Assembly: GCA_949294085.1 (NCBI GenBank)
Contig: CASFFX010000008.1
Span: 1 to 64,000, forward strand
Origin: an uncultured bacterium
Lineage (GTDB): Bacteria > Elusimicrobiota > Elusimicrobia > Elusimicrobiales > Elusimicrobiaceae
Length of the DNA: 64,000 nucleotides
Direction: 5' to 3'
Of this stretch, positions 2,544 to 2,881 are shown piece by piece. The first letter of the stretch is position 1, and every line of letters starts with the position of its first letter. The translations under genes were made by a program, and so were the position numbers. The notes under the pieces were generated by a model that worked only from the letters and a program-made list of their open reading frames with translations, was not told the origin of the DNA and made no database searches.

Positions 2544-2881
2544 GGGCAGCCCAGATAACCGCTCCCGGCCAATTCCGGCTTTGGGGGAGGAACTTCCGGA
2601 CTCCATAGGGCAGTGCGCCGTTTGAAAGGACGGGACGACGGGGCCAGATTACCCCGCCGGACGGAAAGTGCAACAGAAAAAATACCGCCCGCAAGGGTAA
2701 GGGTGAAATGGTGCGGTAAAAGCGCACCGCGCGTTTAGCAATAAACGCGGCAAGGCAAACCCCGCACGGAGCAAGGCCAAACCGGTCCACACGCGGCCCG
2801 CGTTCGCGACCAAGTAGGCCGCTTAGAGTAATGGTTATCCCGGCCCGCAAGGGCCGACAGAATCCGGGGTATCGGCTGCCC
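2544..2881 (+). ncRNA. rnpB: RNase P RNA (bacterial A type)
   Basis: Catalytic RNA of RNase P, which trims tRNA 5' leaders. P1 is formed by GGGCAGCC (2544-2551) and GGCTGCCC (2874-2881). Conserved blocks are recognisable: CCATAGGGCAG after the first core strand, GGAAAGTGCAACAGAAA, AAGGGTGAAATGGTGCGGTAAAAGCGCACCGC (in part), a GGCAAACCCC-type segment, and CAGAATCCGG near the 3' end. The first P4 strand reads AACTTCCGG instead of the near-universal AAAGTCCGG, and the opposite strand reads CCGGGGTA instead of CCGGCTTA, so pairing is kept. A T-rich stretch follows the 3' end, and a strong terminator lies at 2924-2953. Confidence 0.93.

Follow-up and report, generated by a model that had tools for sequence, protein, structure and literature searches.

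The RNase P RNA gene and its P4 helix

The stretch of DNA analysed here (hereafter the window) comprises 64,000 nucleotides of contig CASFFX010000008.1, from the assembly GCA_949294085.1 of an uncultured bacterium of the Elusimicrobiaceae, and carries rnpB, the gene for RNase P RNA, at 2543-2886 on the forward strand. The first-pass annotation had recognised it as such, and Rfam agrees, with a match to RF00010 that covers the whole model (positions 1-367 of 367) and scores 201.7 bits, against a curated gathering score of 100 bits. The gene encodes the class A RNase P RNA of a gut bacterium in Elusimicrobia and is the single RF00010 match in the whole 1.5 Mb genome, the search of which revealed no second, canonical rnpB.

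RNase P RNA is the ribozyme that trims transfer RNAs, and P4 is the best-conserved helix in its active centre. The catalytic P4 helix of this RNA departs from the letters generally found there, on both of its strands. In E. coli numbering (our own mapping, which agrees with the A67, G68, U69, A351 and A352 named in PMC12710915), the 5′ strand, ACU[U]CCGGA at 2592-2600 (+), reads A66 C67 U68 [U69] C70 C71 G72 G73 A74, and pairs with UCCGGGGU at 2863-2870 (+), which reads U353 C354 C355 G356 G357 G358 G359 U360. Compared with AAG[U]CCGGG/CCCGGCUU, three pairs have changed on both sides: 67:359 from A-U to C-G, 68:358 from G-C to U·G, and 74:353 from G-C to A-U, the letters concerned being C2593, U2594 and A2600 on the 5′ strand and G2869, G2868 and U2863 on the 3′ strand. 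Canonical sequence precedes each strand, with the GAGGA lead-in on the J3/4 side at 2587-2591 (+), identical in nearly all relatives read, and ACAGAA, which includes A351 and A352, at 2857-2862 (+), recognised from the sequence, the Rfam alignment and the relatives.

The first-pass annotation had reported ACTTCCGG at 2592-2599 and CCGGGGT at 2864-2870, and both letters and coordinates are exact; the pairing that it drew is also correct, and can be extended by A2600-U2863 (74:353), likewise altered on both strands. Since these very stretches are the ones that Rfam matches with the P4 consensus, AAGUCCGG and CCGGCUU, there is no better placement of the canonical strands, and a misplaced P4 is ruled out. 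The window thus has ACUUCCGG/CCGGGGU in place of the consensus letters, which are a sequence consensus and no structural requirement for class A membership, and its differences are compensated and common to relatives. The P4 with a bulged U on its 5′ strand that characterises class A is present, as A-U, C-G, U·G, the bulged U and CCGGA/UCCGG.

Like E. coli M1 RNA, also an RF00010 class A RNA, the window RNA has the full-length architecture, GAGGAA in J3/4, ACAGAA, the bulged U69 and the pairs C70-G357 and C71-G356, and its genome encodes RnpA. Unlike M1 RNA, it has C-G rather than A-U at 67:359, U·G rather than G-C at 68:358 and A-U rather than G-C at 74:353, lacks P18, and carries AAGU where L15 would have GGU. 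Downstream of rnpB, a hairpin followed by a T run (ccccgccaaacggcggggttttttat, 2930-2954, +) reads as a likely transcription terminator.

P4 states across Elusimicrobiota

We read both P4 strands in about 146 Elusimicrobiota genomes, whose families are labelled f1-f28, and refer to P4 states by their letters at 66-68 and 358-360. C67, G358 and G359 are shared by 100 genomes in families f1, f2, f7, f8 and f13, with U or C at position 68 (C68, and hence ACC/GGU, in 14 of the 100, from f1, f2, f7 and f13), and they occur in every rnpB of the same genus, family and order with both strands read. Near relatives therefore show no standard P4 strands, and the first-pass view that this is no read error holds: the identical change in independently assembled relatives rules out a sequencing or assembly error, and one of the genomes (G090) is assembled into one contig, 1,643,562 bases long.

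More distant families complete a graded series of AAG/CUU, AAG/UGU, AAU/GGU, ACU/GGU, ACC/GGU and ACU/AGU. The canonical AAG/CUU is found in f4, f14, f16, f22, f23, f24 and f28. AAG/UGU, with a G68·U358 wobble and a fixed A67·G359 mismatch that persists across families (L148-L166, f15 and others), is found in 22 genomes of f3, f9, f11, f15, f19, f21 and f26, AAU/GGU in 3 genomes of f5, and ACU/AGU, with a Watson-Crick U68-A358, in one genome of f20. In an RpoB tree of 25 Elusimicrobiota genomes, the ACU/GGU and ACC/GGU rows form one group (support 100/98), inside which ACC is found at two separate places. Because the f20 genome groups with three AAG/UGU rows, its ACU/AGU is most readily taken to have arisen separately, although its branch is long and such placements call for caution.

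A second origin in Bifidobacteriaceae

We scanned 84,980 species genomes for P4 5′ strands in which A67 and G68 are both changed, and obtained at least 80 loci. Among the matches listed, all but three (L189, L190 and L198) belong to Elusimicrobia or Bifidobacteriaceae, judged by title and P4 reading; one titled 'bacterium' and one titled 'uncultured bacterium' both carry an Elusimicrobia-type P4. The three others were rejected as RNase P RNAs, having no Rfam RNase P match. Because the scan pattern demanded C71 and a GGRCU continuation, and given its scope of at least 80 loci, further clades with changed 67 and 68 may exist.

The P4 of Bifidobacteriaceae (GGAACUUCCGGGC/GAACCCGGGGUA, both strands read at no fewer than 49 loci) has the window's letters at 67, 68, 358 and 359, so that the ACUU/GGU helix is common to the window and to Bifidobacterium, Gardnerella, Scardovia, Alloscardovia and Aeriscardovia. 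However, these RNAs belong to another phylum and retain both G74-C353 and P18, and ACU/GGU arose there separately. In a sample of 296 Actinomycetota genomes, position 67 of the 5′ strand is A, C or G, while position 68 is G, except for the Bifidobacterium centre and some isolated matches. The 3′ strands that we read (L312-L331) agree, giving AAG/CUU, ACG/CGU and AGG/CCU with 68:358 remaining G-C, and the bifidobacterial state was probably derived from ACG/CGU and not from AAG/UGU.

Actinomycetota RNAs with ACG/CGU or AGG/CCU thus share with the window a compensated change at 67:359, whereas their 68:358 is still G-C; as covariation at 67:359 is common in that phylum, the rare part of the window's change is 68:358. 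The compensatory change that the first-pass annotation had described, with its bulged U retained, is supported by the pairing states among relatives, with the refinement that one of its two pairs is altered routinely in Actinomycetota and the other is the unusual one. Moreover, what had been presented from a single sequence is a trait of a whole lineage, evolved independently in Bifidobacteriaceae, rather than an oddity of one genome.

Covariation in P4

We assessed covariation in 35 distinct P4s from Elusimicrobiota, Bifidobacteriaceae and other Actinomycetota. Standard pairs occupy 97.1% of cells, a share that falls to 52.5% and 49.6% if the partner strand is displaced by a single column, and the covariation score is 0.504 against 0.201 in shuffles, none of 500 of which scored as high; both controls leave the relatedness of the sequences in place. 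Pair 68:358 takes five forms with no mismatch (G-C 15, U-G 9, G-U 6, C-G 4 and U-A 1), and pair 67:359 is C-G in 15, A-U in 12, G-C in 1 and A·G in 7. A66, U69, C70, C71, G72, G356, G357 and U360 are invariant. A single inherited accident is disfavoured by the RpoB tree and by the occurrence of the change in a second phylum.

RnpA, L15 and tRNA context

The genome retains a gene for RnpA (PF00825, E 4.8e-24, G000 C6:303479-303808), and a search for protein-only RNase P (PF08745, PIN_5/HARP) gave a best score of 18.8 bits, under the cut-off; the RNase P RNA of the window is consequently presumably needed by the cell. The GGU motif of L15 pairs with the 3′ RCC(A) of transfer RNA (tRNA). The window and its family have AAGU there (2808-2822 in the window), while f7 and f8 keep CGGU, and P18 is absent from the window RNA and its family. 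The L15 GGU motif is also missing in cyanobacteria (PMC4264200), and so is not required for class A membership. The three tRNA genes of the window (14885, 21312 and 21389) lack an encoded CCA.

Interpretation of the P4 change

In a cryo-electron microscopy study of the E. coli enzyme, an inner-sphere ion is held by phosphates at A67 and G68 together with O4 of U69 (PMC9433436), and modelling work lists metal contacts at the phosphates of A67, A351 and A352 (PMC12710915). Because metal contacts at 67 and 68 go to phosphates and not to bases in these accounts, changes of base identity could be tolerated there, and the simplest reading is that the variant would keep the metal site by keeping helix, bulge and backbone, the identity of the bases at 67 and 68 being immaterial. 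The window's RNA is most probably the genome's ordinary, working class A RNase P RNA, with a P4 that compensatory evolution has reshaped, and we infer from sequence that it is active and that its metal site is unchanged. The essentials retained would be the length of the helix, closed at one end by A66-U360, the pairs C70-G357 and C71-G356 beside the bulge, the bulged U69 itself and, in the backbone, the phosphates of residues 67 and 68, which would hold the catalytic metal. The bases of 67:359 and 68:358 would mainly pair with one another and could drift jointly. In Elusimicrobiota, the path would lead from AAG/CUU to AAG/UGU, with its A·G mismatch and G·U wobble, then to AAU/GGU and to ACU/GGU, with a later change of U68 to C giving full Watson-Crick pairing more than once.

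Several observations weigh against this reading. Fixed A67·G359 mismatches lie on the proposed path (22 genomes with AAG/UGU and 3 with AAU/GGU), and pairing at 67:359 is therefore not strictly required. With L15 changed and P18 lost in the family, the P4 change does not sit in an otherwise standard RNA. A nearest-neighbour duplex model of ACU/GGU, furthermore, favours U68 over U69 as the bulge, so the position of the bulge could be dynamic, and a bulge that slides may be a property of the ACU lineages.

Among alternative explanations, the strongest is that the new P4 was selected, whether for metal affinity, for choice of cleavage site or for its fit to altered substrates, such as tRNAs without an encoded CCA and a changed L15. 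The origin of an identical two-pair change in two phyla favours such retuning, as do AAGU in the L15 of the window's family and the three CCA-less tRNA genes, and the degeneracy of U68 and U69 as bulge could alter metal binding. However, f7 and f8 share the P4 yet keep CGGU in L15, so the P4 and L15 changes are not tied, and the several 68:358 pair types within one clade look like drift under a pairing constraint; on balance, we regard adaptive retuning as unlikely.

Alternatively, the bulge itself may have migrated, such that in ACU/GGU U68 would be the catalytic bulge, U69 would pair with G358 and the metal site would be shifted by one residue. Read by itself, the window offers G2868 two equivalent partners, U2594 and U2595, and duplex folding leaves U2594 as the bulge. 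Relatives with ACC[U]/GGU (14 genomes, from f1, f2, f7 and f13) nevertheless fit a bulge at the canonical U69 and thereby set the register, and U69 is invariant, which argues for U2595 (+) as the bulged uridine and ligand of the catalytic metal and makes migration distinctly improbable.

That the RNA is decaying under relaxed selection, with another enzyme processing tRNA 5′ ends, might be suspected from the missing P18 and from a score of 201.7 bits where five canonical f16 loci reach 232-271 bits, yet a single copy is kept together with RnpA, no PIN_5/HARP match exceeds the cut-off, pairing at 68:358 is strict and the P4 is conserved across a clade of 100 genomes, all of which renders decay very improbable. 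A sequencing or assembly artefact or a misaligned P4, for which we found no supporting evidence, has a negligible probability, given the identical change in independently assembled genomes (one of them in one contig) and the alignment of the same columns by Rfam.

RNase P RNAs in tRNA arrays and large viral contigs

Besides its canonical rnpB, one metagenome-assembled Elusimicrobiota genome (G251) has a second, short and divergent RNase P RNA of 103 bits (L363 3088-3413, G251:C75:1-6841), surrounded on a 6.8 kb contig by 27 tRNA genes and by genes for RtcB, HNH and macro-domain proteins, an array that is probably phage-derived. Another genome (G229), which also has a full rnpB, carries, flanked by tRNA genes, a further and partial RNase P match whose 3′ P4 strand is canonical (L364 3931-4107, G229:C57).

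Following the P4 of the second G251 RNA into IMG/VR, we found RNase P RNAs on viral contigs of up to 497 kb, many within tRNA arrays. Eight of these contigs (145-497 kb) carry RNase P RNAs that score 118-280 bits with Rfam, several of them inside tRNA arrays (L385 800-1149, L407 6074-6431, L378 4030-4350, L415 351-704, L419 5068-5413, L405 11470-12119, L372 12670-13008 and L422 3911-4249). The rnpB sequences of L378 and L419 gave no blastn match among the 50,697 phage records of INPHARED. Genes near two of the viral loci encode a phage-type DnaB helicase, ribonucleotide reductases and a homing endonuclease, and a GOLLD RNA (L413 5070-5488) lies in the tRNA array of one viral contig of 385 kb, on which there is also an RNase P candidate.

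Many viral candidates, which are only partly Rfam-scored, have C71-G356 swapped to G71-C356 (L370, L371, L373, L393, L394, L397, L399, L403, L405, L410, L411, L413-L417 and L419-L421), a pair that never varied in the 35 distinct bacterial P4s. Some additionally have G67-C359 and U68·G358, the latter shared with the window, to which the swap at 71:356 is extra. One could propose that the change at 67:359 and 68:358 is a re-engineering of the active-site helix that has recurred under selection, with a bulge able to slide between two uridines or an altered metal site, and that large phages go further, with RNase P RNAs of their own in which as many as three P4 pairs are rewired and which would mature the phages' tRNA arrays; we consider this broader proposal unlikely.

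Significance of the variant P4

One paper took the P4 5′ strand AAGTCCG as a universal string for finding rnpB (PMC4264200), and a recent survey terms P4 universally conserved (PMC12974513). We found no prior report of P4 variants in Elusimicrobiota or Bifidobacterium in the open-licence literature; subscription papers lay outside this search, and earlier notice is possible. The ribozyme is known, and we present its P4 state as a new variant with no claim to a first sighting, as databases surely hold examples that have passed without comment.

A phylum with canonical, mismatched and fully rewired P4s, together with the bifidobacterial repeat, separates the features that the catalytic helix would need (the bulged U, the backbone, A66-U360 and C70-G357) from those that would be merely usual (67:359 and 68:358), and the variants of both groups are natural RNAs with which this division could be tested. 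String-based rnpB searches miss whole clades. More generally, P4 letters once considered nearly fixed appear to be tolerated in nature to change, if the helix and its bulged U persist.
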